Below are positions 1 through 27,953 of a stretch of DNA of 28,278 nt, piece after piece. The position numbers and the translations under genes are program-made. The notes under the pieces are model-generated. The model saw only the letters and a program-made list of their open reading frames with translations, was not told the origin of the DNA and made no database searches. Each line of letters begins with the position of its first letter. Position 1 is the first letter of the stretch. Origin of the DNA: a virus; the IMG/VR virus record IMGVR_UViG_3300044798_000551, positions 1-28,278 of that record. One strand, 5' to 3'.

Positions 1-489
1 TCCTGGTCTTTCCCATTCCTCCTGCAATACCCTTTGCATATGTTCTCTATAGACTGGGCTTAACCACATTTCTTTAGTTCTAATAGACATAGCATTTGCC
101 ATTTTCTTACGATATTGTGGGTCAGTCCATTTTTTTAACAGTGATTGACTAATTCCTGCAGACAATTTTTCTCTACCACCAATCCACTGTTGCCTTGCAT
201 TATCTGACTTTAATTTGGCATAGTTTGGATTGGTCCAACGATTTTTTATTATACCACTAATTTTAGCACGATATTCTGGAGATTTCTTAACACATTTTGA
301 ACATTTATATTCTTTCCCAGTCCTACAGAAAGATATGTGTGCCCTCAATTTAATAAAATTGGTTTGATCGCAAATAGGGCATTTTACTGGCACTTTATCA
401 TGGCATCCTGGGACACAATCTAACAAATGTTTTTGTATATATGGAGACTCACACACATATGGTGATTCAATTTTCCAATCAATGCCCAT
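1..489 (-). CDS. Homing-endonuclease-like protein, N-terminal part (runs off the left edge)
   Basis: Open from an ATG at 489 to the window edge (163 codons, no stop), so the C-terminus is missing. The ATG overlaps the stop of the upstream gene as TAATG, suggesting translational coupling. The N-terminus (MGIDWKIES) resembles that of the upstream gene (MIDWHLTE). Both then have a Cys-rich segment (here CPIC and CSKC pairs) and NUMOD3-like repeats with Trp-Asp/Asn-Pro-x-Tyr cores (RWTNPNY, KWTDPQY, MWLSPVY). NUMOD3 repeats are DNA-contacting modules of homing endonucleases. No nuclease domain is visible in the part present. A TATAAATA motif lies about 60 bases upstream (minus strand, 548-555), inside the previous coding region. 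The gene is probably a paralogue of its neighbour; the nuclease type is inferred. Confidence 0.7.
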   Translation of the reverse strand, partial: MGIDWKIESPYVCESPYIQKHLLDCVPGCHDKVPVKCPICDQTNFIKLRAHISFCRTGKEYKCSKCVKKSPEYRAKISGIIKNRWTNPNYAKLKSDNARQQWIGGREKLSAGISQSLLKKWTDPQYRKKMANAMSIRTKEMWLSPVYREHMQRVLQEEWERPG

Positions 490-1874
490 TAATTTATCCT
501 CAATGGCATGATATATCTCAATTTTTCATCTCCGAAGAGTTTCCTATATTTATATTTGGTAGCAAATTCTCGTTCAGTCATTCTTAAAGAAGTAGCATGG
601 TTCCATAATGTTTTCTTGTGCATCACCCATCCCTTGTCATCAACATACCAATAGGAGGGTGGGACTTTGCCATCCAACTTGAAACCAGAAGCTTTATAAA
701 CAGTACCTTGATGTCCAAAAGTGGTGTCAGCAAAAGCAATAATCATTTTATACTTGTTTTTCAATAATTTCCTGGTTCTATTGATAAACCAAGATGCAAA
801 GTTCTTTTTGTGCCTGTGATCTGCTATTGCTAGTCTTGATATTTCTATTATTTCTGTTGTTTTCAATCCTTGTTTGATTGCTACTTCTTTTCTAATTATT
901 GGTGAGTAAACTATTGCCGCTAGCAATTCTTCTCCAAGGTAAGCTCCATAAATTATTCCACCTCTGCCTAAGGAACCACTGTAATGATATTGTGTAAAGA
1001 ATATCCTTGCTTCTTTTGCTGAAAGTGATTTAATTTGAACTTGCTCTATTTCAAAATCCTTATATTCTATTTTATCAATTCCTAACCATTGCCTTATCTT
1101 GCTTTCTACCCTTCCTTTGGTGTAGAATTCAAATTCCCACAAAACCTTAAAATCATAAAGTTGTGATAAATTGTTTGTTGCGTAAGTTGCTTTCTTCCTG
1201 TCTCTTTCTATTGAGGACTTCAGGCTGTGCCAGTAGTCTCCATTTATTTCTACCAATATTGGCTTCTCTGCCTTTACTAAAAAATCAAAGGCATAGGGGC
1301 CTACTACGTATTCTGGAGTGTATTGGATGTTATGTGTGTCTAAGATTGAGGAAAATACTGTGTGAAGTGAGGAAGGCTGTTTGCCCGTTAAGACTAGAGA
1401 CGCACTTGTGCCCTTTATTACTCTTTCTCTATAGACTGGATCTTGCCATCTTATAATTGATTGTTGCTTTCTATCTTCTCTATATTGTTTGTCTTTATAT
1501 TTCTCTGAATAATATTCACTTAACTTCTCTCGCTTTTCAGGTTCCAACCATTGTTTTATTGCTATCTCTGATATCTTGTTTCTATATTCTTTATTTCCCC
1601 ATAGTTTTTTGCTTGATGCTTGCCTTTCTTTTTTATATTCTTCTTGCTTCCATTGTGTTGTCATTTGCTGACTATGCTGAGCCTTTACTTCTTGTTTATT
1701 CGTTGCGCATTTATAACATTCCCATGGAAGTTGGTTATCAATTATCCTTGATTTTACTCTGATTGTTAAAATTGTTTGTTTGCCACAACTATCACATTTT
1801 GCTATTACTTTTGGCCGATAAGTATCAAAAGACACGGAGCCATATGTTGCTTCAGTGAGGTGCCAGTCAATCAC
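489..1874 (-). CDS. NUMOD3 + Vsr-like nuclease + Mom/GNAT-like domain fusion (putative homing endonuclease)
   Basis: 461 aa starting at GTG. Order of parts: zinc-ribbon-like segment (CDSC at 27-30, CYKC near 53-56); NUMOD3-like repeats about 75-150 (QWLEPEKR, RWQDPVYR); a PD-(D/E)XK/Vsr-type domain about 165-265 with E188, D197, E209 and the NGDYWH core at 211-216, resembling the EDxHD homing nucleases such as I-Bth0305I; and a C-terminal domain about 285-430 with YHYSG and TTFGHQGTVYKASGF motifs typical of the phage Mom-like GNAT fold. Homing activity is inferred from the nuclease and NUMOD parts. The Mom-like domain could modify or only bind DNA. The start lies six bases past the conserved end of a TnpB/omega-RNA relic, and an in-frame TAA just upstream limits extension. 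The gene is intact and shares TAATG with the next gene. Confidence 0.75.
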   Translation of the reverse strand: MIDWHLTEATYGSVSFDTYRPKVIAKCDSCGKQTILTIRVKSRIIDNQLPWECYKCATNKQEVKAQHSQQMTTQWKQEEYKKERQASSKKLWGNKEYRNKISEIAIKQWLEPEKREKLSEYYSEKYKDKQYREDRKQQSIIRWQDPVYRERVIKGTSASLVLTGKQPSSLHTVFSSILDTHNIQYTPEYVVGPYAFDFLVKAEKPILVEINGDYWHSLKSSIERDRKKATYATNNLSQLYDFKVLWEFEFYTKGRVESKIRQWLGIDKIEYKDFEIEQVQIKSLSAKEARIFFTQYHYSGSLGRGGIIYGAYLGEELLAAIVYSPIIRKEVAIKQGLKTTEIIEISRLAIADHRHKKNFASWFINRTRKLLKNKYKMIIAFADTTFGHQGTVYKASGFKLDGKVPPSYWYVDDKGWVMHKKTLWNHATSLRMTEREFATKYKYRKLFGDEKLRYIMPLRIN

Positions 1875-1970
1875 TCTTTATGGCTCAGCTTACTCTTGCG
1901 TTGACAGTTCCTTGAGTTGTGTTTCCCCAACTCTCCCTGTCCGTGGATTTCGGTCAGCCCGACCGTATTT
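1865..1970 (-). ncRNA. Orphan omega-RNA-like sequence of the TnpB relic, with possible guide
   Basis: In TnpB elements the guide (omega) RNA overlaps the 3' end of tnpB, ends at the right element end, and takes its guide from flanking DNA. Read on the minus strand, this segment keeps the structural elements of the intact copy: hairpin CGGTC-gggct-GACCG, an outer GACAG/CTGTC helix, and an inner helix. The inner helix is GAGTTG/CAACTC here but GAGA/TCTC in the intact copy, so both sides changed together. The shared block ends in GCTGAGCCA at 1881. The next bases (about 1880-1865), which would be the guide, cover the GTG start of the gene at 489-1874. Retained structure without the protein suggests it could still work with the TnpB at 9301. 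Expression and function are inferred. Confidence 0.5.
1890..1970 (-). pseudogene. tnpB: tnpB C-terminal relic
   Basis: 26 codons in frame, reading NKYGRADRNPRTGRVGETQ followed by LKELSTQE and stop. They align with the last residues of the intact TnpB encoded at 9301-10542 (EYGRADRNLWTGRERAGSS, then LIELSKQEVS). The conserved block starts abruptly: upstream bases show no resemblance to TnpB, so the rest of the gene is gone. DNA similarity continues past the stop to 1881 (TAAGCTGAGCCA in both copies). This is what remains of a second IS605-family TnpB element of the same subfamily. Confidence 0.8.
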
Positions 1971-2146
1971 GTTAACTTCACAGTTTGGTGTTTTAACCGT
2001 TTGGCTCTCGCGGTTAATCACAACTTCCTGCTGATTTTACGCTGATGGATTTTTCAGCAACCTCATATCAGACTTGTCAAAGAGCACTACGTGGCTTGGT
2101 TCTCACCACTTTTATATCTACTTTAGTCAACCAAGTGAGATCATGC
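1971..2146. other. Non-coding stretch between the tnpB relic and the 2147-2473 gene
   Basis: No open frame worth calling. On the minus strand there are short hairpins (GCTGA/TCAGC around 2050-2065; AACCG/CGGTT around 2000-2020) that could extend the omega-RNA-like structure 5'-ward or be the left part of the decayed element. The intact TnpB copy shows no similarity here, so the boundary of the relic cannot be set. A group I intron was considered and not supported. Confidence 0.4.
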
Positions 2147-3016: not shown

Positions 3017-5191
3017 ATGCCCACAACAGAAATAGCAAAAACTCCTACAGAAATTCCTAATACGGATGTGCTTGCGAAAAGGATGGAAATCCAACCTCGT
3101 TCTTATTATTTCGACAATGAAGTATGCGAGCGCTTAATGCACAAATATGTCAAGGGAAGTTGCACAGACGTGAAGATACGTGATGAAATAATGAGCCACT
3201 CCGTAGAATTAATTAATCAAATCATCAAAACATATAATCTTGGGCACATCTATTCTGGAAAGGAAGAAAGTTCCATAATGGATTTATTTCAGTGCGCATG
3301 GATTCAGTTGGAGAGTATGTTATATAAATATGAGGCTAGACCACATTGTGCAAAGTGCTATAATAACTTACGTCCAAATAATTCAATACTATCAGAAGAT
3401 TACATTTTCGAAGAGCAATTAATTAAGAAAATAAAAACCTGCCCAAATTGTGGTGTAAAGTTAACAATTGATGGAATATATTATAAAGGGAAATCTAAGA
3501 TATTTAACCTTTGGTGCGTCAACCCAAACACAAAAGTATTAACTGATCAAGGAATATCTCCAATAAGTGGAGTATTAGATTGTAATAGGAAAGTATATGG
3601 GTTAGATCAACTGCAGAAAATAAATGGTAGTATTAAAAAACCAAAACAAAACACTCTAAAAATAACAACAAGACTTGGATATAACATCGAATGCACACCT
3701 GAGCATGGTCTCTACAAATTGGATCAAAACGGTCCAATTTGGGTTAAAGCTCAAGATATTATATTAGGTGATTTAGTCGGAATACAATATTCTCAGCAAT
3801 ACTTCGGCAATGATGACGACATTAGCGACATAATTCTAACTAAACCAAATGATTGGACACCACCAAAGAAAATAACCGAGGATTTAGCATATATCTTTGG
3901 ATTATATCTGGCAGAAGGATCATATAATCCTGATATGGTCAGTATTTACAACATCGAAGATGAGGTAAAAGAGTTTTTTGCAAATAAGCCATTAGGATTG
4001 AAATGGGGATTTTATCCCAGGATTTGTGTCAATTATAACTGTTGCCAGAGATTTAGTGAGTTTTTGGATAAAATGGGTTTTGGCGATTGTCATGATTGCC
4101 ACACCAAGAAAATACCATCAAGATTACTTAAGATGTCAAAACAAAATATAAATGCTTTGTTGCGCGGAATGTTCGACGGCGATGGCCATTCTTCTAGACA
4201 TTTGGGTTATGTTGGCTACACTTCAACATCAATAGAGCTTATCGAACAAATCCGCATGTTATTGTTGAATATTGGTATCCTCTCCAAAATCACCAAAGAC
4301 AATCGCAAGGTGCGAATGTTCAAAAAACCAAATGGTAAAATTTATAATTCAAATCTAGCCGGTGCCTACCAAATAAACTTATCAAGCTTTGATTCTCTGT
4401 TGTTCTACGATAGAATTGGATTTAAAGCAAAAAGAAAACAAGAAAAGATGAAACATGTAGTAGCACCACAACCAATACTATTGGGATTAAATTCAAAGTT
4501 TAATAATCTATATAAAGCTCATGGACCAGCAGGACATTACGATGACATTCGAAAAGTACGAACAGGATCTCGCATATCTCTAGAAGTTGCCAAAAAATCA
4601 TTGGCCTTCTGGGATAATTATGAAGATAACCAGAATTATGTTTTCATTAGAGATAGAATAGAAGAATTAACTCGCGCTAGAGATAAAATCACTTGGCTAC
4701 CAGTCATAAACATAGAAAAATCGAGTAGTGAAGTTTGTGATATCGAAGTTAACTCTCCTAAACACTCTTATATTGCGAATGGATTTATATCACATAATAG
4801 CCAGGTCGCACGGACAGTAATCCTAGCTTATATTAAAAAAGACAAACGTGATCATAAGAATGGAGGAACTTTTAAGACACATGTTGAGGGTAGGATATTG
4901 TACCCCCATTGTGCTCTAGAAAGGTTTTTCCTAGAAGCCACAGAATTAAGCAAATACAACGAACAACACTTAAAAATATTAGAAGCAATCAAAGAATTAT
5001 ACAAGACAGATGAAAGACCACACGAGGGATTAATAACCAAATTGATGGATAAAACTGGTTTCCAAAGAACTATTATAAATGACTTCTTCCAAATGATTAA
5101 ACTGCGAGGCGCAGAACTCACTGATAGCCCAATCAACAATAAACCTGACACCATGAAAGATAGGATGGAAGACGAGGACGATTTATATTAA
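3017..5191 (+). CDS. Late-transcription sigma factor (gp55-like) interrupted by an intein
   Basis: 724 aa precursor; removal of the intein (residues 167-594) leaves 296 aa. The exteins join as KIFNLW-SQVARTVILAYIKK, a region-2-like helix matching the core of T4 gp55-type late sigma factors, which direct host RNA polymerase to TATAAATA promoters together with the sliding clamp. Before the intein there is a zinc-ribbon-like insertion (C111, C114, C142, C145) not present in the short T4 protein. After it comes a helix-turn-helix-like C-terminal domain (about 650-700) and an acidic tail ending EDEDDLY, which could be a clamp-binding tail (inference). GGAGG lies seven bases before the ATG. The intein should splice, because its terminal residues are intact. 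Identification as late sigma is supported by the promoter motifs in the window. Confidence 0.8.
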   Translation: MPTTEIAKTPTEIPNTDVLAKRMEIQPRSYYFDNEVCERLMHKYVKGSCTDVKIRDEIMSHSVELINQIIKTYNLGHIYSGKEESSIMDLFQCAWIQLESMLYKYEARPHCAKCYNNLRPNNSILSEDYIFEEQLIKKIKTCPNCGVKLTIDGIYYKGKSKIFNLWCVNPNTKVLTDQGISPISGVLDCNRKVYGLDQLQKINGSIKKPKQNTLKITTRLGYNIECTPEHGLYKLDQNGPIWVKAQDIILGDLVGIQYSQQYFGNDDDISDIILTKPNDWTPPKKITEDLAYIFGLYLAEGSYNPDMVSIYNIEDEVKEFFANKPLGLKWGFYPRICVNYNCCQRFSEFLDKMGFGDCHDCHTKKIPSRLLKMSKQNINALLRGMFDGDGHSSRHLGYVGYTSTSIELIEQIRMLLLNIGILSKITKDNRKVRMFKKPNGKIYNSNLAGAYQINLSSFDSLLFYDRIGFKAKRKQEKMKHVVAPQPILLGLNSKFNNLYKAHGPAGHYDDIRKVRTGSRISLEVAKKSLAFWDNYEDNQNYVFIRDRIEELTRARDKITWLPVINIEKSSSEVCDIEVNSPKHSYIANGFISHNSQVARTVILAYIKKDKRDHKNGGTFKTHVEGRILYPHCALERFFLEATELSKYNEQHLKILEAIKELYKTDERPHEGLITKLMDKTGFQRTIINDFFQMIKLRGAELTDSPINNKPDTMKDRMEDEDDLY
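3515..4798 (+). mobile_element. Intein with LAGLIDADG homing endonuclease in the sigma gene
   Basis: 428 aa, from C167 (CVNPNTKVLTDQG, block A) to N594 (FISHN), followed by Ser as the +1 residue. A block B-like ECTPEHGLYKL lies at 225-235. Two LAGLIDADG-like motifs are present: LAYIFGLYLAEG (290-301, acidic E300) and ALLRGMFDGDG (380-390, acidic D389). The end reads CDIEVNSPKHSYIANGFISHN, the usual block F/G pattern. All residues needed for class 1 protein splicing (Cys1, block B His, penultimate His, terminal Asn, +1 Ser) are visible. It sits in the conserved region-2 helix of the late sigma factor, an unusual host gene for an intein. Confidence 0.9.
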
Positions 5192-5205: not shown

Positions 5206-6777
5206 GTGATTACTGAATCTCGAACCTCAAATTATCTCAACAAACTTGGTTGGCGTATCCATGAAGCAGATGGCAGCGAGTATTGTCCTGCTTGTGCTCT
5301 AAGAAATGGGGCGAACCAATTAATTACTGGAGACATAATTAAAAGCTATCAAATAGGGGCAATTACTTTCATCCAGTGTCAATCACTCAACTGTACAAAT
5401 AGCCTTATTATTCCTTTGCACGGACCTGAAGCAACACCTAGGATGGAAGAAGTGAATAATCTAAATCCTAACACCTGTCCAGAATGTGGTGAAAGAGAAG
5501 AGACTAGATGTAGATGTAGGATTGGCGATAAAGAATGTAAAAACCACCATCATTGGGCAATGTGTAAAACTCATGGCAAGGTTAGTTGCACCCAGCCACC
5601 TAATGGCTCATATCCAATCCCTAACTGCCCCTGCTACCAGAAAGTGCAAACAGAGGGTATCACCAACTCTCGCGACCCATTACCATATCATCAACGACTA
5701 GGATCTGATAAACATGAACAGAAGATGTATGATTTTTTGTGTAGCCAAACAAAGAGTGCAATAGATTACTATCATGGCGCATTAAAGTCTGGTGATGATG
5801 GCTTACTCAAAAATGCAAGCGACCTTTTGGGACGTATCCGGAGAGTACATGGTAAATATATAGACGATCATTACAAAGATGTACAAGCATTGCGTACAGC
5901 AAAAGAAAGATTCTCACACTATGCACAAGCAGACCACCACAAGCAAGTGTCTGACTTCCTTCAGAAGTTAGAAGACCATGTAAATAGAATGCGGGGAATT
6001 CAGGTGAAAGTAGAAGACATCGCTACTGGCCTAGAGGCCCATCTCCGCCACCTATTTGAAGGTAGTAATAGAAGCCAGCGAGTAGGAGAGCGAGTAGCTA
6101 GACATATAGGAAGAGCCACAGGAAAATATGAAAAGAAGCCTGGAGCAAAAATGGTTCCAGACCCTGACAAAGTAATAGCTCGAAAATCTGTTGGCCTATC
6201 TGGAAAGAAATTCGGACGCTTCCACGGACAGCAAATGTCTGACAGCAAGCAAAAGCTCGTTCTAGCCGCACAATTCTTGAAAGACAACTATAACAAAGAC
6301 GAGCAAGAACTAGCAACTCTTGTAAAAACCTTTCCTTACAAACATGAACTCACCAGCATTGTTGACCACATGATAGCCACAACTTTAGGAGGTTGGAAGA
6401 AAGAAGGCACCCAGCTCGTAAATGAGACAGAACACATTGCCAACCCCAATAACTGGATATTCAATGAAGATGGAACAATCATCACTAGAAATAGAAAAAA
6501 ACTTAGCAGCATAGATAATTTATTAGTGATTAAAAGACTAAACGAAGCTTCAAGCCCACAACGGCAACAAGAATTTATCAATAATTCACCCAGTATACAA
6601 GGGAAAACTATGAGTAAAGAAGAACATGATAGGATTATTGCTGATGCTCTCAGTTTCATTGATTGGACAATTGAACCTGCTGGAAATAAAGACATAAATC
6701 GCAGGAAATTAGAAGTAGTTGATAACTTGCGATGTATTATGTTTATCAACAAATTCCAATTATCCACTGATAGATAA
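5206..6777 (+). CDS. Hypothetical protein with N-terminal zinc-binding clusters, 523 aa
   Basis: No known family recognised. The N-terminal 140 residues hold several Cys/His clusters: CPAC near 26-29, a CxxxxxC pair around 65-70, then CPEC, CRCR and a KNHHHWAMCKTHGK segment around 94-126. This looks like two or three zinc-binding modules. The remainder is charged and mostly helical with no membrane segment. It lies 15 bases after the sigma gene and just before the small terminase, so it may be co-transcribed with the packaging genes. The start is provisional: the GTG at 5206 is the first possible one after an in-frame stop, but the AGGGAG sequence ends on it, too close to serve as its Shine-Dalgarno. 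Confidence 0.7.
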   Translation: MITESRTSNYLNKLGWRIHEADGSEYCPACALRNGANQLITGDIIKSYQIGAITFIQCQSLNCTNSLIIPLHGPEATPRMEEVNNLNPNTCPECGEREETRCRCRIGDKECKNHHHWAMCKTHGKVSCTQPPNGSYPIPNCPCYQKVQTEGITNSRDPLPYHQRLGSDKHEQKMYDFLCSQTKSAIDYYHGALKSGDDGLLKNASDLLGRIRRVHGKYIDDHYKDVQALRTAKERFSHYAQADHHKQVSDFLQKLEDHVNRMRGIQVKVEDIATGLEAHLRHLFEGSNRSQRVGERVARHIGRATGKYEKKPGAKMVPDPDKVIARKSVGLSGKKFGRFHGQQMSDSKQKLVLAAQFLKDNYNKDEQELATLVKTFPYKHELTSIVDHMIATTLGGWKKEGTQLVNETEHIANPNNWIFNEDGTIITRNRKKLSSIDNLLVIKRLNEASSPQRQQEFINNSPSIQGKTMSKEEHDRIIADALSFIDWTIEPAGNKDINRRKLEVVDNLRCIMFINKFQLSTDR

Positions 6778-6781
6778 TATT

Positions 6782-7372
6782 ATGGAACCAAATACTGAAG
6801 CTGATGTTGAAGAATTGCTAGCCTCCTTACCTGATACTCCTGACTTATCAAAAGAAATTGCTGAAGTAGCAAAAATTACCCAACCTATACCACCTGCGCC
6901 TCCGAAGCCAATACAGCCTGTGCAAGAACCTGTACTAGAGAAAGATGTTATAAAAATAGCCTCTTCTGATTTATTGGTGCCAGGTGGTGAAGCAACAAAT
7001 CTGACTGCACCCTTCCTGGAATTATTGAAGACTTTCCCAACAATTGCCAATAAGATTATTGCAAATCATGCCTCTGACCGGGAACAAGTTGAGCAAGCAA
7101 TAAAATTTTTAGAAACTCAAATGAAGAATATGGGAAACAAATTGCCCGCTGTGATATTGGAGACTTGGGCTAAATTATTAGCAACTAAAGCAGAAATTAA
7201 TGCCAACGCCAACGGGGTCCTTGATTCAAGTGCTAAACTCCTAGCTGCCGCCAAGAACAACAACATCATAATCAATGTTGGAGATGACAATAAGTCTATT
7301 GGCGGACTTGACCTTGCTGCTTTGCTTGCGCAGCCTCAAAGAGATGATGAAGCACTAACCAGGAAGAAGTAA
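6782..7372 (+). CDS. Probable small terminase subunit (gp16-like)
   Basis: 196 aa from the ATG at 6782, which follows the previous stop by four bases; a longer frame begins at 6719 but overlaps the previous gene. The N-terminal third is acidic and then Pro-rich (PIPPAPPKPIQPVQEP). The middle and C-terminal parts are helical and Ala/Asn-rich (KFLETQMKNMGNKLP, KLLATKAEINANANG). Small terminases recognise phage DNA and stimulate the large subunit. The assignment rests mainly on position directly ahead of the large terminase (stop and next ATG one base apart) and on size and helical character, not on a motif. Confidence 0.6.
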   Translation: MEPNTEADVEELLASLPDTPDLSKEIAEVAKITQPIPPAPPKPIQPVQEPVLEKDVIKIASSDLLVPGGEATNLTAPFLELLKTFPTIANKIIANHASDREQVEQAIKFLETQMKNMGNKLPAVILETWAKLLATKAEINANANGVLDSSAKLLAAAKNNNIIINVGDDNKSIGGLDLAALLAQPQRDDEALTRKK

Positions 7373-7373
7373 T

Positions 7374-9263
7374 ATGGATCCACAAGTAGTAGCATTAATT
7401 AAAAGATGTCAAAGCAGTCCAAGTTTTTTCATTGAAAACTTTTGTATGGTGAAACATCCCAAAGCTGGAATTATCCCATTTAAATTATTCTCATATCAAA
7501 AAAGTTCAATTAAAGACTTCTTATCTTATAGGTTCAACATTTATAGAAAATGTAGGCAGTCAGGGATCTCGACAATTGCTGGGGCATTTGCTTTGTGGTA
7601 TACAATGTTTTTCCCTCATAAAACAGTGTTAATAGTCTCTAAAAGAGACACAGATGCTAAAGCTTTTCTAAAGAAAAACGTAAAGTTGGTGTATGACAAC
7701 CTTCCATCATTGTTTAGGAAAATTTGGGGTAATCCACCCCCTATTTATAGTGAGCACGTAATAGAGTACCCGAATAAATCTCATATAACAAGCCTAACCT
7801 CTTCACCAGACACAATGAGATCTTATTCATCGTCTCTCAATATCATAGATGAAGCTGCACACATGCCCTTTATGGAAGAAATGTGGTCAGGAGCTGCTCC
7901 GACAATATCACATGGTGGGAATGTCATAGTAATCAGCACGAGCTTCGGAGTAGGCAATTGGTATCACACTACTTGGGAAGATGCAATAGCTCAAAGAAAT
8001 GATTTCCATCCAATTGTTGTCAACTGGTGGGAAATGGACTGGGTTATTGAATATGAAGATGAACTTTCTGGTAAAAAATGCAGGATAGCACCCAGAGATG
8101 GCTTACGAGATTGCAAAACAAAAGAAGAAATAGAAAAATGGGGTCCATATTATAGTCCTTGGTTGGAAGAACAATATAGAATGTTGCAGGAACGCGGTGA
8201 ATCACATCTCTTTAGACAGGAGGTGTTAAGTGAATTTTTAGGAAGTGGCAACACTGTCCTTACTCGTGATCAATTACTTTATATTCAGAGCACCTTGGAT
8301 GACAATTTCTCAACAGTTGGACAAGTTGATTATATTCATCCTGTGAGGGGTGAGAAGCTCACTCTTGATTTTGAACATAATTTACGTGTCTGGAAGAAAC
8401 CTGTTAGGCCACAACCAGATGTTATAGAAAATGGAAGAATTATTAAGCGAGGAGACCCTGGGCACATTTATTCCCTTGGTATTGATATTTCCTCATCGGA
8501 AGCAAATGATTATTCTTCAATTTTTGTGCTAGATTGCACAACTCGTGAACAAGTTGCTGAACTTAACATTAAAGTTTTCCCTATGACTTTGGTTATGATG
8601 GCTGATTATATTGGCAGATGGTATAATGGAGCCTTCCTGGTTCCAGAACGTACAGGAATGGGCACACCAGTAAGCCAATCAATTTATCATGACACTGCTT
8701 ATTCCAATGTTTACAGGATGAAAAATGAGAATGGGAAAATCAGTAGGAAAGTTGGCTATCCTACTTCCCCCACTTACAAGCCCGCCTTGGTTAAGTGTTT
8801 GCTGGATTATCTGGGTGAAGAGGGTGTGAAAATTGTTAGTAGAAGGCTCTTTGAACAGCTCTCTATTTTCATCCACCTAGGTAATAAGCAAACTGGCAAT
8901 GTTAAGGGTCCTGGTAATCATGATGATTTGGTTATTTCTTGTGCTTTGGCTCTCGTTGGCTTCCCAGAGGCGATGCAAGCAGATATTAGCTCCCTGATAC
9001 CCAAGAAGAATAAGATGGATGATGAGGAAACTGAACCACAGTTAAGCAAGAAGGATTATAATGACATACTAACCAGTGGTGGTAGTGGCTGTCTTGCTCC
9101 TCTTATCCTTGGGTCCAATAATATGCCAATTATGCAATCCCCTGAAGAAGAAATACGTAATTTCCAAGCCCAGATGGGTGGGATCTCCATGAAATCACAA
9201 TTTGCAAATCCAACTATGAGAAAGAGAAATATAATTTTACCATATAATAGAACCACAAATTAA
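7374..9263 (+). CDS. Large terminase subunit (gp17-like ATPase/nuclease)
   Basis: 629 aa, normal for T4-type TerL. The ATPase domain shows a variant Walker A (RQSGIST, 61-67), Walker B IIDE (D159/E160, then AAHM) and the coupling motif VIVISTS (184-190). The RNase H-like nuclease domain has D371 (LGIDISS), E425 (VPERTG) and D517/D518 (NHDDLV). The protein pumps DNA into the prohead and cuts concatemers. AGGAAGAAG lies ahead of the ATG. The last 28 codons (from 9177) have a diverged second copy at 10549-10638 beyond an inserted TnpB element, so the present 3' end is probably not the original one. The frame is intact and the enzyme should be functional. Confidence 0.93.
   Translation: MDPQVVALIKRCQSSPSFFIENFCMVKHPKAGIIPFKLFSYQKSSIKDFLSYRFNIYRKCRQSGISTIAGAFALWYTMFFPHKTVLIVSKRDTDAKAFLKKNVKLVYDNLPSLFRKIWGNPPPIYSEHVIEYPNKSHITSLTSSPDTMRSYSSSLNIIDEAAHMPFMEEMWSGAAPTISHGGNVIVISTSFGVGNWYHTTWEDAIAQRNDFHPIVVNWWEMDWVIEYEDELSGKKCRIAPRDGLRDCKTKEEIEKWGPYYSPWLEEQYRMLQERGESHLFRQEVLSEFLGSGNTVLTRDQLLYIQSTLDDNFSTVGQVDYIHPVRGEKLTLDFEHNLRVWKKPVRPQPDVIENGRIIKRGDPGHIYSLGIDISSSEANDYSSIFVLDCTTREQVAELNIKVFPMTLVMMADYIGRWYNGAFLVPERTGMGTPVSQSIYHDTAYSNVYRMKNENGKISRKVGYPTSPTYKPALVKCLLDYLGEEGVKIVSRRLFEQLSIFIHLGNKQTGNVKGPGNHDDLVISCALALVGFPEAMQADISSLIPKKNKMDDEETEPQLSKKDYNDILTSGGSGCLAPLILGSNNMPIMQSPEEEIRNFQAQMGGISMKSQFANPTMRKRNIILPYNRTTN
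9177..9263 (+). repeat. Terminase C-terminal tail, copy A (in frame with TerL)
   Basis: Encodes the last 28 residues of TerL (GGISMKSQFANPTMRKRN, then IILPYNRTTN). It resembles the sequence at 10549-10638 in codons and protein: both start GGTGGGATC and end ACCACAAATTAA, with many base changes between. About 18 of 28-29 residues are identical, and copy B has one extra codon. Divergence rules out a simple target-site duplication made on insertion. Confidence 0.85.
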
Positions 9264-10548
9264 ATAAAAAATTTACACTTTATCTAAGCAAACATACCTT
9301 ATGAAGATTAGTAAGGCTTATAAAATTCGGATCTATCCCACCTGTAAGCAGAGAAATCAGTTTGCCAATCATTTTGGTGCTGCTCGCTTCATTTACAATT
9401 ATTTCCTGGAAAGGAAAGAAAAACAATTTAGAAAAACCAAAAAATCGGAAAGTTTCTTGAAGATGTGTAAACATCTTACAGAGTTAAAGAAACAAGAGGA
9501 CTATTTATGGTTAAATGAACTTAGTAGACAGAGCCTAGCAAACGCAATTGCAAATTTGGATGATGCTTATAATAAATTCTTTAAAAAGAAAGCAGAATGT
9601 CCAAGTTTCAAAAATAAATACTCAAAACAAGCATTTAAAATTTGTAGTCCAATTTGTTCGGTTAGAGGCCAATTTATTCATCTTCCGCTCATAGGAGATA
9701 TCAAATGTGAACACAATTTACCTGAAGAATATAAGTTATTCTCAATAACAATAGTTAAAACTCCAACAGATAAGTATTTTGCTTCAATAAATGTAGAAGA
9801 GGAAATACCTGATCCAGTTGTTAACCCAAAGAAACCTGAAATAGGGATAGATTTTGGTCTTAAAACTTTCATAACTATTTCAGATAGCAGGAAAATAGCA
9901 CATCTTAAACCCTTCAAAAAATTACTAAAGAAAGTCCAGAGATTTGCAAGAAGAGTGGATAGAAGAAAATTAGAGAAAATACAGGTTCCAAACAACAAGA
10001 AATTAAGCAAACAAGAGAAAAGTGAAAAACACAGATGCGATACAATTACCAGAACAGTGGTTTCCGCAAGGAGGGCAGTTGCACGGAGAAAATTGGCAAT
10101 TCTCCATGAGAAGATCAGCAATTTGCGTTTAGATTTCCTTCATAAGTTGTCTTCCAAGATGGTTGACGAGAGCCAAGCAATTTATCTTGAAGACTTAAAC
10201 TTGAAGGGAATGATGAGCAGATATGGGAAAGGGATTTGTGATAGTGGGTGGTATGAATTTACGAGACAACTCACTTACAAAGGAAAATGGTATGGTTGTT
10301 ATGTTGGTAAAATTGACAGGTTCTATCCAAGTTCTAAGATGTGTAATAAATGTAAAAATATAAACCAAGGTCTTGAATTAAAGGATAGGACTTGGGTTTG
10401 CAGTTGTGGTGCTCATCACGATAGGGATCTAAACGCTGCTAAAAACATTCTTGAATACGGTCGGGCTGACCGGAATTTATGGACAGGGAGAGAAAGGGCT
10501 GGAAGCAGTCTCATTGAACTGTCAAAGCAAGAAGTAAGCTGAGCCAAG
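9264..10548 (+). mobile_element. TnpB-only IS605-family element inserted at the 3' end of the terminase gene
   Basis: The element runs from just after the TerL stop to the GGGTGGGATC junction at 10548. It contains one gene, tnpB, and no tnpA transposase. The right end is defined by comparison with the relic at 1881-1970, where similarity stops at GCTGAGCCA (10546 here). The left end is not visible as a repeat; only 37 bases separate the TerL stop from tnpB. If copy A of the terminase tail travelled with the insertion, the mobile unit begins near 9177. Mobility is probably by guided cleavage and recombination (homing) or by a TnpA in trans. Confidence 0.7.
9301..10542 (+). CDS. tnpB: TnpB, RNA-guided nuclease (IS605 OrfB)
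   Basis: 413 aa, full length. The N-terminus (KAYKIRIYPTCKQRNQFANH) is typical of the family. RuvC motifs: GIDFG with D184, YLEDLNL with E297, and HDRDLNAAKN with D374/D376. A zinc ribbon lies between the last two (C348, C351, C367, C369). All catalytic residues are present, so the enzyme should be active. TnpB cuts DNA next to a short TAM, guided by omega-RNA made from its own 3' end. No clear Shine-Dalgarno precedes the ATG. The guide expected from this copy is terminase sequence, so its likely target is a terminase gene lacking the insertion. Confidence 0.93.
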   Translation: MKISKAYKIRIYPTCKQRNQFANHFGAARFIYNYFLERKEKQFRKTKKSESFLKMCKHLTELKKQEDYLWLNELSRQSLANAIANLDDAYNKFFKKKAECPSFKNKYSKQAFKICSPICSVRGQFIHLPLIGDIKCEHNLPEEYKLFSITIVKTPTDKYFASINVEEEIPDPVVNPKKPEIGIDFGLKTFITISDSRKIAHLKPFKKLLKKVQRFARRVDRRKLEKIQVPNNKKLSKQEKSEKHRCDTITRTVVSARRAVARRKLAILHEKISNLRLDFLHKLSSKMVDESQAIYLEDLNLKGMMSRYGKGICDSGWYEFTRQLTYKGKWYGCYVGKIDRFYPSSKMCNKCKNINQGLELKDRTWVCSCGAHHDRDLNAAKNILEYGRADRNLWTGRERAGSSLIELSKQEVS

Positions 10549-10563
10549 GGTGGGATCATGCTG
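10456..10563 (+). ncRNA. omega-RNA of the intact TnpB, with guide from the terminase tail
   Basis: Overlaps the end of tnpB. It contains hairpin CGGTC-gggct-GACCG (10458-10472), then GGACAG pairing with CTGTC, enclosing a GAGA/TCTC helix. The same plan, with the inner helix changed on both sides, occurs in the relic at 1881-1970. The scaffold ends near GCTGAGCCAA (10547), so the guide would be about 16 bases from 10548, beginning GGGTGGGATCATGCTG. The first ten of these also match terminase copy A and the rest do not. Exact ends are estimated to within a few bases. Confidence 0.55.
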
Positions 10564-10638
10564 AATTCTAAGTTTGCAAACCCAGCCATGAGAAAAAGAA
10601 ATATTCTAACTATACCTTTCAATAAGACCACAAATTAA
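10549..10638 (+). pseudogene. Displaced terminase C-terminal tail, copy B
   Basis: Thirty codons reading GGIMLNSKFANPAMRKRN and ILTIPFNKTTN, then TAA, homologous to the end of TerL but cut off from it by the TnpB element. Its stop overlaps the stop of the convergent gene at 10635-11045, which looks like the original gene junction. Copy B therefore is probably the ancestral end of the terminase gene and copy A the one brought in. It has no start codon or RBS of its own and is unlikely to be translated. Confidence 0.85.
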
Positions 10639-11045
10639 CTTGTCAACTCCAATTTAGGATCAATTGCCCAATAATCATCGGCAGTGATCTCTATATTTGG
10701 ACAGTCGCTATTCATCTTTGCTAGGTGAAGAATTTCATTAATGTCATCATATAACTTGACAAATTTATTCTTAATTATTTTATATTCAACAAAATGTTGT
10801 GGGTGTGGCCGGTCTTCAAAAAATTGGCGAACTTTCTCTCTAGTGTCTAAATACACCTCTTTACCAAATAAGAATTGATACCACTTGTGTTTTGTCTTAT
10901 CTTCAACCCTGATAAACGTATCAAGAAACGCATTGAGATCTTTCTCCTGCCTTTCTTTGATTATTTTGAGGCTTGCCTCACACATCTCTATTACACGAGA
11001 GGCTAGAATTGCTCTAGTCGAATGGCAATCGCTCAAATCGCTCAT
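10635..11045 (-). CDS. Hypothetical protein, 136 aa
   Basis: Helical, charged, no signal peptide or membrane segment; no family recognised. Notable segments are KIIKERQEKDLNAFLDTFIR and a Trp/Phe-rich KHKWYQFLFGKEVY. Its ATG overlaps the stop of the upstream 233-aa gene (ATGA), so the two are translationally coupled. Its stop overlaps the stop of the displaced terminase tail on the other strand. Confidence 0.7.
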   Translation of the reverse strand: MSDLSDCHSTRAILASRVIEMCEASLKIIKERQEKDLNAFLDTFIRVEDKTKHKWYQFLFGKEVYLDTREKVRQFFEDRPHPQHFVEYKIIKNKFVKLYDDINEILHLAKMNSDCPNIEITADDYWAIDPKLELTS

Positions 11046-12214: not shown

Positions 12215-15200
12215 TCATATTCTGAACCTCTTTTTCACAAAACTTATACCATCAATCTGCTTGTCGCCAATTATTACCTTCACCGGATAGCCAGTGTCAA
12301 TCGCGGCTTTCAATTGCTCTCTGCTATGAGAATAAAGATAACGATTGGAGAGATGAAAGAACGCATATACTCTAGCAAAGCCACGTTCATTAATTCTAAC
12401 AGCACGACCAATTACTTGAGTAAAATCTGATCTCATTTTACCACCGCCTATGATTATAAGGTTCTCAGTACCCGATAAAATATCGAACCCCCGACGTAAA
12501 ATTTTGCTTCCTATTAAACATTTTAATTCACCACTCTCAAACTTTAGTATAGCCTCATTTCTCTTCTTCCTTGGAGTTTCACCAAACAGAAATTGTGAGT
12601 TTGGAATAAGGCTTTCAAGTTTCACCCCCAAAGGCTCTATAGGGGAGGTATCTATAAGAATAAGAACTCTCTCACCTTTCTCCATCAAAGAGCGAGCAAG
12701 TTTTGCTGTCATATTCTGGAGTTTCTCATTATCGACAATATCCTCCTTCATTGCTATGTCATAAGTCCTACTATCCTGTCTGTCGCCCTCCATCCCCACT
12801 CCAATAAAACAACACCTAACTGGGATAATTCTACCAGTTGCTTGCACTTCTGCCCTACTTGTTTTATAAATCACACTTCCAAGATTTTCTTTAAGTATGA
12901 GGTTCTGGACAGGCTTCTTGGTATCCCAAGGAGTACCCGAATGACCATATCTTCTACGCCCTTTGAATATGTACCGTAGTAAATAAGCATATTGTTTGCT
13001 AGTACAAAGGTCGCAATTGTGTACAATAACACCATTAGCATCAAATGATTGTGCACCATCAACAGAAAAATCAAGTAGTCTCCTATATGCATCTAATTCC
13101 ACCTTCTTTACCAATTCAGTAGTAAAACCAGTAAGTTCGTCTATTTCAGCGACATATCCTAATAATTCCTTCTTTAGATGATCAACAAAAGCAAGCCATT
13201 GGCCATCATCCTTTTTATTAACTCTTTTTCCCCAAGCAGTCATCACGCCACAACCAATATGTTTTGCGACCTTTGTATCAGATATTCCGAAAAATTCCCT
13301 TGCCTGGCTATAAGTGGTTATGTCCATGGTAGCCAATTCATTAATATCATGTCTCCATCTCATTAAGGTGTCTAAACTCACCATACCAGTAGGAAAATAC
13401 CCATTCAAACCCAATATTTTCAATAATCTGTCTTGGGACAAACCAGAAGATAACCATTTTCTTAAAAACATAGAAGCATAAATATGGCGATTTCCTGACA
13501 ATTTAACTCTTTGCGATTGTGATCTCGCCAATTTTCTTTCAAATCTAAACCCAGCCAATTCACAAAACTTAACATAATCCTCACCATGAATTTTTACCCT
13601 CCAAGTGTTTGCATGTTTTGGAGATTTTCTCTTATTCTCTGTGGTTACATACGAACTTATCCCTAAATAAGATAAGAAGATCTGCGATTGTCTAACGACT
13701 TCATAATCAGTACAACCAAACTTGCAATAATGCTGATAGGCCGTTCCTTCTGAATCAAACAAGCCCGATAATAAACCAGCAGCGCAATTGTGATTTGGAA
13801 TTGTAATGCCAAGTTTGATATTACCCATCTTACGTCCTTTTTTGAACCCTAATTCCGATATCCAATCAATAAACTTCTCCGAATTAAGACAGATCACAAG
13901 ATCATCACGAATATTGCTACGACAAGTGGCAAGTCCATCCCAAAGGAGAGCCATTTCCTTTGTCATTTTAATCCAATCTTGTCTGTCTTTTCTAACTCCA
14001 TATCTGATCTGTTTATCACTCAAAAAATGTCCATCGCCTATAAACAAACCAAGATGATACCATCTCTTGAAATCGTCTGATTCACGATTGGTGCTAATTA
14101 TAGGAGCAGAGCATAAAAGCACATCATCAACCAATAAATCTTTAGCGTATTTATCAACACGTCTGCCTTCAACCAAAGTTGCTATTTTATGTTCTTTTGA
14201 ACATATTAGGGTACGATTATTACCAGTAGTTATCTTCAGTGAATCAGAATATTTTTCAGCACAACTAGTTATCGGATATGATCGATTTCCAACAACAGCG
14301 CTGACATTATCGCCTCTAACAACTATCTCATATAGCGTTTTCGCTGGCATCAACCCTCTATTTGTAGAAATCAAAGTATCCTCAGCAACGCATTCATCAC
14401 AAATCAACATATCACACTTTGAGATAAGTTTCTGGATAAGCCTAGCCTTCTTAATTCTAGTAGAATACCACTTCAATCTTCTATTCCATTCCTGCTCGCG
14501 ATAATAAGTGGTGAAATATTCAATATAATCATCAATCTGATCAACCCAATTTTCAGTAATCAATAACTTATCAGCAATATGCTTGGGGAAGATATCAAAA
14601 ATTTTCTGGTCCTGGGTCTCAACAATATCGAATAACATCTTTGAGGCTTTAGCCTTACCTATCTTGATATCTTCCTTCTTTGGCTCTTTAGGCAGGGATA
14701 CAGATTGAATGCTGCCAACTATCACCAAATTATTGTTAGGTAAGAAACCATAACAAAATTGCCCTATATCATCCTTATGAACAACACCTCGAAGTTTCAA
14801 TTGCCTTATTATTTGATCTAGAACGATTATTTGCTCTGTTATTATGACTGTCGGACACCTAAACAACTTGACTTGCCCACAAATCAAAAGCGTCTTTCCA
14901 CTTCCTGTGGGAGCATCTATAATACCTATTTCGTTGTCGCAACTTGCCTGTAAAGCCTCTACTTGATAATTTTCTAGGGTCATTCCTTCTATGAAATCTT
15001 TGGTTATTTGATCCTTCTGTGGAGCAGGATAATTCGGAGCCATCCTCTCATCTACTACTTCTAACGGTATATGATGCTTCTCACAACAAATCTTCAATTC
15101 TTCAAGGAAAGGAAGAGCTAGACGTTGCAATTTGGCGTTATATTTCCGATAAACCCCATCCCATTCCCCATCTGTGTCAATGTAAAAATGTCTAGGATCA

Positions 15201-15292
15201 ACCACACTGAAATGCTTTGCCAGCGTCTCATCGCAATCAGGAGTTATTTGTTCCAAATAGATGTGATGATTGTCGCGGATATAAGCAAGCAC
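12215..15292 (-). CDS. uvsW: UvsW-like SF2 DNA/RNA helicase interrupted by an intein
   Basis: 1025 aa precursor; splicing out residues 301-759 leaves 566 aa, close to T4 UvsW (587 aa). The N-terminal domain is followed by Walker A (APTGSGKT, 127-134), motif II completed only after splicing (LICDE-CDLC), motif III-like GHSGTPW, and C-terminal helicase motifs including SKILRRGFD and QVIGRAVR. UvsW branch-migrates and unwinds recombination and R-loop intermediates in T4 and helps the switch to recombination-dependent replication. The start is GTG at 15292 without a Shine-Dalgarno. A TTAAATAG late-promoter-like box lies 13 bases upstream, so late mRNA may have a very short leader. Helicase activity should need intein removal because motif II is split. 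Confidence 0.88.
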   Translation of the reverse strand: MLAYIRDNHHIYLEQITPDCDETLAKHFSVVDPRHFYIDTDGEWDGVYRKYNAKLQRLALPFLEELKICCEKHHIPLEVVDERMAPNYPAPQKDQITKDFIEGMTLENYQVEALQASCDNEIGIIDAPTGSGKTLLICGQVKLFRCPTVIITEQIIVLDQIIRQLKLRGVVHKDDIGQFCYGFLPNNNLVIVGSIQSVSLPKEPKKEDIKIGKAKASKMLFDIVETQDQKIFDIFPKHIADKLLITENWVDQIDDYIEYFTTYYREQEWNRRLKWYSTRIKKARLIQKLISKCDMLICDECVAEDTLISTNRGLMPAKTLYEIVVRGDNVSAVVGNRSYPITSCAEKYSDSLKITTGNNRTLICSKEHKIATLVEGRRVDKYAKDLLVDDVLLCSAPIISTNRESDDFKRWYHLGLFIGDGHFLSDKQIRYGVRKDRQDWIKMTKEMALLWDGLATCRSNIRDDLVICLNSEKFIDWISELGFKKGRKMGNIKLGITIPNHNCAAGLLSGLFDSEGTAYQHYCKFGCTDYEVVRQSQIFLSYLGISSYVTTENKRKSPKHANTWRVKIHGEDYVKFCELAGFRFERKLARSQSQRVKLSGNRHIYASMFLRKWLSSGLSQDRLLKILGLNGYFPTGMVSLDTLMRWRHDINELATMDITTYSQAREFFGISDTKVAKHIGCGVMTAWGKRVNKKDDGQWLAFVDHLKKELLGYVAEIDELTGFTTELVKKVELDAYRRLLDFSVDGAQSFDANGVIVHNCDLCTSKQYAYLLRYIFKGRRRYGHSGTPWDTKKPVQNLILKENLGSVIYKTSRAEVQATGRIIPVRCCFIGVGMEGDRQDSRTYDIAMKEDIVDNEKLQNMTAKLARSLMEKGERVLILIDTSPIEPLGVKLESLIPNSQFLFGETPRKKRNEAILKFESGELKCLIGSKILRRGFDILSGTENLIIIGGGKMRSDFTQVIGRAVRINERGFARVYAFFHLSNRYLYSHSREQLKAAIDTGYPVKVIIGDKQIDGISFVKKRFRI
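13016..14392 (-). mobile_element. Intein with LAGLIDADG homing endonuclease in the helicase gene
   Basis: 459 aa from C301 (CVAEDTLISTNRG) to N759 (GVIVHN), followed by Cys as the +1 residue. A block B-like CSKEHKI lies near 364-370. LAGLIDADG-like motifs are HLGLFIGDG (413-421, D420) and LLSGLFDSEG (507-516). A later helix-turn-helix-like segment (LSQDRLLKILGLNGYFPT) may help DNA recognition. Splicing residues are all present. The insertion point is inside the DExx (Walker B) motif of the host helicase, a conserved active-site position of the kind inteins favour. Confidence 0.9.
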
Positions 15293-27764: not shown

Positions 27765-27953
27765 TTATATAAACATTGATTTCAGGGATGGAATAATTTC
27801 CTTGGTTCGAAAGAACACAGTATAGAGCACATAAAACCAGCCGAGGAAGAAATGAAGCAAGCCCCACCAAAATGAGTGGTTTAAGGCTGCACTGATGATA
27901 ACAGCACAAACACCGCCGATGGTAAAACAACCTACATTTCTCTCATTACTCAT
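27765..27953 (-). CDS. Small membrane protein, 62 aa
   Basis: ATG at 27953 with GGGAG about eight bases upstream. Two hydrophobic stretches (CFTIGGVCAVIISAAL and WWGLLHFFLGWFYVLYTVFF) make a likely two-pass membrane hairpin with a basic end. The start overlaps the stop of the upstream gene by eight bases. No family is recognised; size fits holin-like proteins but also many other small phage membrane proteins. Confidence 0.6.
   Translation of the reverse strand: MSNERNVGCFTIGGVCAVIISAALNHSFWWGLLHFFLGWFYVLYTVFFRTKEIIPSLKSMFI

Follow-up and report, generated by a model that had tools for sequence, protein, structure and literature searches.

The window analyzed in this study is the whole of a linear, 28,278-base virus record (IMG/VR record IMGVR_UViG_3300044798_000551), a single metagenome contig in which a gene for a predicted TnpB RNA-guided nuclease separates two versions of the 3' end of a large terminase (TerL) gene. 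One version, copy A, is joined to the terminase reading frame, and the other, copy B, lies beyond the nuclease gene next to a convergent neighbor (Table 1). The two are connected by direct repeats (9176-9232 with 10548-10604, 79% identity, and 9232-9263 with 10607-10638, 78% identity) and match each other with a blastn E value of 9e-15; in a permutation control, none of 391 upstream/downstream flank pairs from other TnpB loci reached E < 1e-5. An earlier interpretation made from the DNA letters alone (the sequence-only reading) had placed the terminase end on both sides of TnpB and had described the overlap between the stop codons of copy B and of the convergent gene, and both observations, including their coordinates, are borne out here.

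When aligned codon by codon, copy A reads MGGISMKSQFANPTMRKRNII-LPYNRTTN* and copy B reads KGGIMLNSKFANPAMRKRNILTIPFNKTTN*, with 15 identical, 5 synonymous and 10 non-synonymous codons, corresponding to 75.6% identity at the nucleotide (nt) and 66.7% at the amino acid (aa) level. Judged by these differences, copy A looks like an allele acquired from a diverged relative, i.e., a swap of alleles as opposed to a synonymous recoding. The sequence-only reading had proposed that the element carries a recoded end for an essential gene: the carried replacement is retained in our interpretation, the recoding is not, given 10 non-synonymous versus 5 synonymous changes, and the essentiality of the target holds for the terminase, to which that statement is limited. 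Copy B is in frame with the terminase, has its own open frame and remains intact beyond the guide as a copy of 30 codons, which suggests recent or repeated encounters with alleles that lack the element (empty alleles).

Table 1. Positions of the terminase, its two ends and the TnpB-associated features in the window (ORF, open reading frame)
Feature	Position	Strand	Basis
Large terminase (TerL) ORF, 629 aa, ending in copy A	7374-9263	+	ORF; Terminase_6N and phrog_2 matches
Copy A, putative replacement terminase 3' end	9176-9263	+	first bases GGGTGGGATC common with target, divergence after
Short left side of element, 37 nt between copy A stop and tnpB	9264-9300	+	sequence
TnpB RNA-guided nuclease (predicted), 413 aa, catalytic residues intact	9301-10542	+	domains, residue alignment
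Omega-RNA scaffold, 3' part, overlapping the tnpB end and terminating in GAGCCA	10450-10546	+	alignment with L007, L008 and the standalone copy
Expected guide, ~16 nt, equal to the start of the displaced end	10547-10562	+	position after conserved right end; length from PMC8612924
Copy B, displaced native-type terminase 3' end (putative)	10548-10638	+	repeat and codon alignment; native status from sister loci
Convergent neighbor gene	10635-11045	-	its stop overlaps the copy B stop (10636-10638)
Standalone omega-RNA scaffold without tnpB	1881-1973	-	alignment

The TnpB element and its expected guide

The TnpB protein contains HTH_OrfB_IS605, OrfB_IS605 and Cas12f1-like TNB domains, matches the sequences of the solved TnpB chains 8h1j and 8bf8, and keeps the RuvC residues D184, E297 and D374 together with the zinc ribbon. 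Its closest relatives are encoded on two other phage contigs (L007 and L008, 72% aa identity), where they abut the stop codon of a convergent baseplate gene, and the low ratio of non-synonymous to synonymous divergence between the window and L007 genes (dN = 0.20, dS = 1.18) indicates that tnpB is under purifying selection. Approximately 29 residues of the window protein (~224-252) are absent from both relatives. No tnpA (Y1 transposase) gene is adjacent, as only 37 nt lie to the left of tnpB and copy B directly follows the element on the right. A weak match to the 5' part of tnpB at 27850-27879 is attributed to chance, with no TnpB frame around it.

The end of the omega-RNA scaffold is conserved in the window, L007, L008 and a standalone scaffold elsewhere in the window, and its stem is retained despite base changes; in the window it ends in ...GTAAGCTGAGCCA (to 10546), with copy B immediately behind. 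Folding energies barely exceed those of shuffled sequences (z scores of -0.5 to -1.4, no clear advantage), and the case for the omega-RNA is therefore one of conservation and not of energy. Searches against Rfam returned a sub-threshold small nucleolar RNA match only, and a reading of the element as an IStron was rejected as no Rfam intron (group I ribozyme) match was found at E values up to 1.

TnpB is known to use a guide of ~16 nt and a transposon-associated motif (TAM) on one side of the target, and to make a double-strand cut that is followed by homology repair (PMC8612924), with a mismatch sensitivity that varies with TAM strength (PMC11043419). Because copy B begins where the omega-RNA ends on the right, its first ~16 nt would constitute the guide. 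Read from 10547, the guide is AGGGTGGGATCATGCTGAAT, and the equivalent stretch of copy A is TGGGTGGGATCTCCATGAAA, which matches at positions 2-11 and is mismatched at positions 1, 12, 13, 14, 15 and 20. The sequence-only reading had emphasized both the full match of the guide to copy B and the partial match to copy A; the mismatch of copy A after position 11 (at 12-15 and 20) stands, while the perfect match to copy B is uninformative, since a TnpB guide is whatever sits past the right end. What is informative is that the joined copy is mismatched to the guide, and the form that empty alleles take.

The same layout at other TnpB loci

To place the window in context, we surveyed 163 TnpB loci from viral contigs and bacterial/archaeal genomes, extended by 18 phage records and clustered, for gene ends that occur in duplicate, and diverged, on the two sides of the element (cutoff, E < 1e-5). 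The layout was present in 4 of 61 viral clusters, in 1 of 18 phage records, and in 0 of 52 bacterial/archaeal genome TnpB loci. Besides the window, the five cases comprise a cytidylyltransferase-like gene (L167; 3' end replaced, 61% aa identity between copies), a small phage gene (L105; 3' end replaced, 64% aa), a gene antisense to tnpB in a T4-like group of contigs (the L152 group; 5' end replaced, 60% aa), and a gene of Vibrio phage 501E54-1 (L391; 3' end replaced). In a tree of TnpB proteins the five occupy four separate places (the window; L167; L105 together with L152; L391), and the related TnpBs of L105 and L152 reside in different genes. Over the first 16 nt of the guide, the joined copy of the carrier has 5 mismatches in the window, the L152 group, L167 and L391, and 9 in L105. 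The replaced end always lies to the left of the element, on its TAM side, i.e., the 3' end in sense genes and the 5' end in antisense genes. The 5' replacement in the L152 group fits this geometry, because replacement is only possible on the TAM side, while the other side must be the guide.

Several candidates were excluded as cases. Lactobacillus phage Lpa804 (L387), the second phage record with a hit at E < 1e-5, has a 246-nt, 89% identical repeat on both sides of its TnpB, but no coding frame is evident in it; the matches at L384 and L390 are AT-rich. At a further locus (L155) the right end is L152-like, but no gene-end copy adjoins it.

Gene ends in element-free relatives

Relatives of the window terminase were sought by pattern searches with its C-terminal peptide and by single-sequence TerL searches, neither of which returned a relative, and by alignment-based scans, which returned ~45 TerL relatives of 40-62% identity. 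TnpB was absent from all of these ~45 relatives, their tails are too diverged to discriminate copy A from copy B, and the nearest TerL contig (L301) ends ahead of the tail. Because no close uninterrupted terminase relative was found, the question of how empty alleles end was moved to sister loci, and the evidence below covers two of them (the L152 group and the Vibrio phage pair 501E54-1/424E50-1), not the window terminase. As a separate observation, contig L016 has a homing endonuclease gene (6501-7883) that begins right where an intein-bearing terminase stops, in the place occupied by TnpB in the window, and that belongs to the same family as the window ORF at 489-1874.

A scan for the L152 gene identified 46 loci, 7 with and 39 without TnpB. 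All seven carriers have the joined head MIYDPSSNIIENEQNHLFLCYCTFVNNIKGK, whereas four TnpB-free loci (L283-L286) have the head MSNPSSAIIESESDHLFICYCSFVNHLKG of the displaced copy, at 95.6% nt identity, even though the gene bodies of these loci are only 84.5% identical to the carrier. Over its first 16 positions the L152 guide has 5 mismatches to the joined copy of the carrier and none to L283-L286; three further types of empty allele have one mismatch each, and ten L152-type empty loci have 0-1 guide mismatches in 16 nt. The upstream side, TTTCTTAC, is identical in the L152 carrier and L283-L286. One element-free locus (L278, 250-504) combines a native-like start with a carrier-type target region and has the same guide mismatches as the carrier. 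Recombination could have produced it as a resistance allele; alternatively, copy A may derive from an allele of this kind.

The Vibrio phages gave a comparable picture. Phage 424E50-1 shares the gene and its neighborhood with 501E54-1 but has no TnpB, and its gene ends in ...KPYLTQRKEERKVARALKKAKQASGSEGTHITR, nearly the same as the displaced copy of 501E54-1 (KPYLTQRKEGRKVARELKKAKQASGSESTHITR; joined copy, KPYLKDRALSRKIARESKKSKSTGTIYTVR) and with one guide mismatch in 16 nt. The two phages agree at 609 of 616 nt to the right of the junction, compared with 84% identity in the gene body. Over 30 kb their identity is mostly 82-90%, rising to 95-100% in a tract of ~2 kb that starts at the junction (L399 18719-20800 vs L400). 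The displaced end coincides with an annotated hypothetical gene of 501E54-1 (VP501E541_P0119, L399 18678-18821), which is the displaced native-type end of VP501E541_P0117, such that at least one small 'hypothetical' phage ORF beside a TnpB can be explained as a displaced gene end.

On these comparisons, the end displaced behind TnpB is of the native type at both the L152 and the Vibrio sites, and the end joined to the gene is foreign. The sequence-only reading had predicted that uninterrupted relatives would end like the displaced copy, and they do so at both sister loci (L283-L286 and 424E50-1), which supports its view that the original gene end was of the copy B kind. By extension from these sister loci, the proposal that the window terminase natively ended in copy B, and that copy A replaces this end as an allele travelling with TnpB, is supported. 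Alternatively, the 3' end of the terminase might have been duplicated locally long ago, with TnpB inserted between the copies and both drifting afterwards. The similar length and position of the two copies agree with such a history, yet it is refuted at the L152 and Vibrio loci, where the joined end must be foreign rather than a drifted duplicate because the displaced copies match empty alleles at ~95-96% and the joined copies do not; for the window we regard it as very unlikely. Even less credible is an assembly or binning artifact that fused two phage strains into one contig, since although the window is one metagenome contig, junctions of the L152 type recur across several differently named contigs and different metagenomes, and the Vibrio locus belongs to a deposited assembly of a phage genome.

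A candidate homing element and its context

We consider it probable that this tnpA-less TnpB works as an RNA-guided homing element that carries a replacement gene end. The mobile unit would consist of the replacement end, the short left side, and tnpB with its omega-RNA scaffold, and would sit inside the native end of the gene it targets. During co-infection, TnpB would cut the guide-matching gene end of element-free phages, as expected from TnpB biochemistry, and repair off the carrier would copy the element and the replacement end jointly, thereby restoring the gene and removing the cut site. On the left side of a carrier, the TAM side and approximately the first 6-10 target bases are kept and the rest is lost, while on the right side the target sequence is kept and the TAM side is replaced by the omega-RNA scaffold, so that neither side should be cut well. 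The carrier thus appears shielded from its own nuclease, as judged from 5-9 mismatches to the first 16 guide bases at the joined copy and the loss of the TAM side at the displaced copy. Copy B would be retained as both guide and right homology arm, and in a target gene that is antisense to tnpB, as in the L152 group, the same layout would swap the 5' end. Cleavage, homing and drive are all inferred here from sequence.

Several points weigh against this interpretation. Duplication at E < 1e-5 was not seen in 57 of 61 viral clusters and 16 of 18 phage records, the right-end boundaries of L167, L105 and L391 were placed by eye (guided by a TTCAC-like end or by the alignment), and no close uninterrupted relative of the window terminase was among the ~45 TerL relatives (62% identity at most). 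Partial self-cleavage is possible if distal mismatches are tolerated, as copy A still has the TAM side and the initial target bases. In addition, the ~2-kb Vibrio tract is suggestive only, because other patches of 97-100% identity exist elsewhere between the two phages. Such patches, the mosaic nature of phage genomes and the resemblance of copy A to ordinary allelic divergence would also be expected if ordinary phage recombination had passively swapped the gene end beside a resident TnpB, with cutting irrelevant and the displaced copy mere debris. We consider passive exchange unlikely, as the displaced copy is flush with the omega-RNA end in every case, the layout is common to independent TnpB lineages and absent from all 52 genome TnpBs, and the replaced end is always on the left (TAM) side, 3' in sense and 5' in antisense genes.

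A broader generalization, on which our judgment is evenly divided, is that phage TnpBs are a recurrent class of natural RNA-guided homing-and-rescue drives. Such drives would invade gene ends and bring an allelic end that both restores the gene and prevents renewed cutting; the displaced native end would serve them as guide and homology arm, element-free resistant alleles (e.g. L278) would emerge in response, and TnpB-free guide-RNA genes (e.g. window 1881-1973) would provide additional targets in trans. An RNA-guided nuclease appears to have reached homing-and-rescue repeatedly in phages, pointing to a route by which tnpA-less TnpBs could spread through coding-dense genomes. The Vibrio phages 501E54-1/424E50-1 and the L152 group offer matched carrier/empty pairs for studying drive, rescue and resistance.

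By family the nuclease is a TnpB, whereas by its working it is best classified as a variant of a homing endonuclease with a carried gene end. The closest architecture is that of the fungal mitochondrial 'gene hybrids' (PMC3630166), in which mobile endonuclease ORFs come with a carried C-terminus (Allomyces macrogynus atp6; Glomus sp. atp6, atp9, cox2 and nad3), and the inserted C-terminal ends cluster with other lineages. Common to both are a nuclease ORF within a gene, an in-frame foreign end, and a native end displaced beyond the nuclease. The fungal systems, however, involve LAGLIDADG or GIY-YIG protein nucleases, mitochondria and, in the cases described there, C-terminal replacements, in contrast to a phage TnpB for which the displaced native end is the expected guide and 5' ends can also be replaced.

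The element shares with the IS200/IS605 OMEGA (obligate mobile element-guided activity) elements, e.g. ISDra2, the TnpB family, a right-end omega-RNA and a guide taken from flanking DNA (PMC8612924), but differs by having no adjacent tnpA, by lying within a coding sequence with a replacement gene end, and by its presence or absence at a fixed gene site in phages. A plasmid TnpB drive without rescue has been described, which targets element-free copies, biases inheritance and is considered neutral for the host (PMC11870625); here, instead, a phage gene would be targeted and a replacement end supplied. Free-standing phage homing endonucleases likewise sit beside terminase or other core genes, with exchange tracts at the site, but their cut sites are protein-specified (PMC10448857), and the words TnpB and recoded are absent from the text of that article. 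We found no account of an RNA-guided nuclease that brings its own gene end in the open-access literature searched, which leaves most subscription papers and preprints outside it. Among synthetic gene drives, homing-and-rescue is an established design strategy, and engineered drives of this kind resemble the predicted element in combining a nuclease with a cleavage-resistant replacement of the target gene end; the element described here is natural, and its replacement is an allelic end rather than a designed recode.

The standalone scaffold at 1881-1973 is 80% identical to the 3' end of tnpB and keeps the GAGCCA end, while the coding frame is lost. Its inner hairpin is altered yet paired, and its guide would be TAAAGAGTGATTGACTGG; possibly it provides a guide RNA in trans for the TnpB encoded at 9301. 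The ORF at 489-1874 (minus strand) resembles a homing endonuclease in its N-terminal half and a Mom-type DNA-modification protein in its C-terminal half, and it is followed by a second ORF at 1-491 (minus strand), of which the window includes the start and which has a similar beginning (IDW...). Inteins with LAGLIDADG domains occur in the genes at 3017-5191 (plus strand) and 12215-15292 (minus strand), the latter encoding a helicase, and with these two intein-bearing genes the 28-kb contig has several homing-type features.

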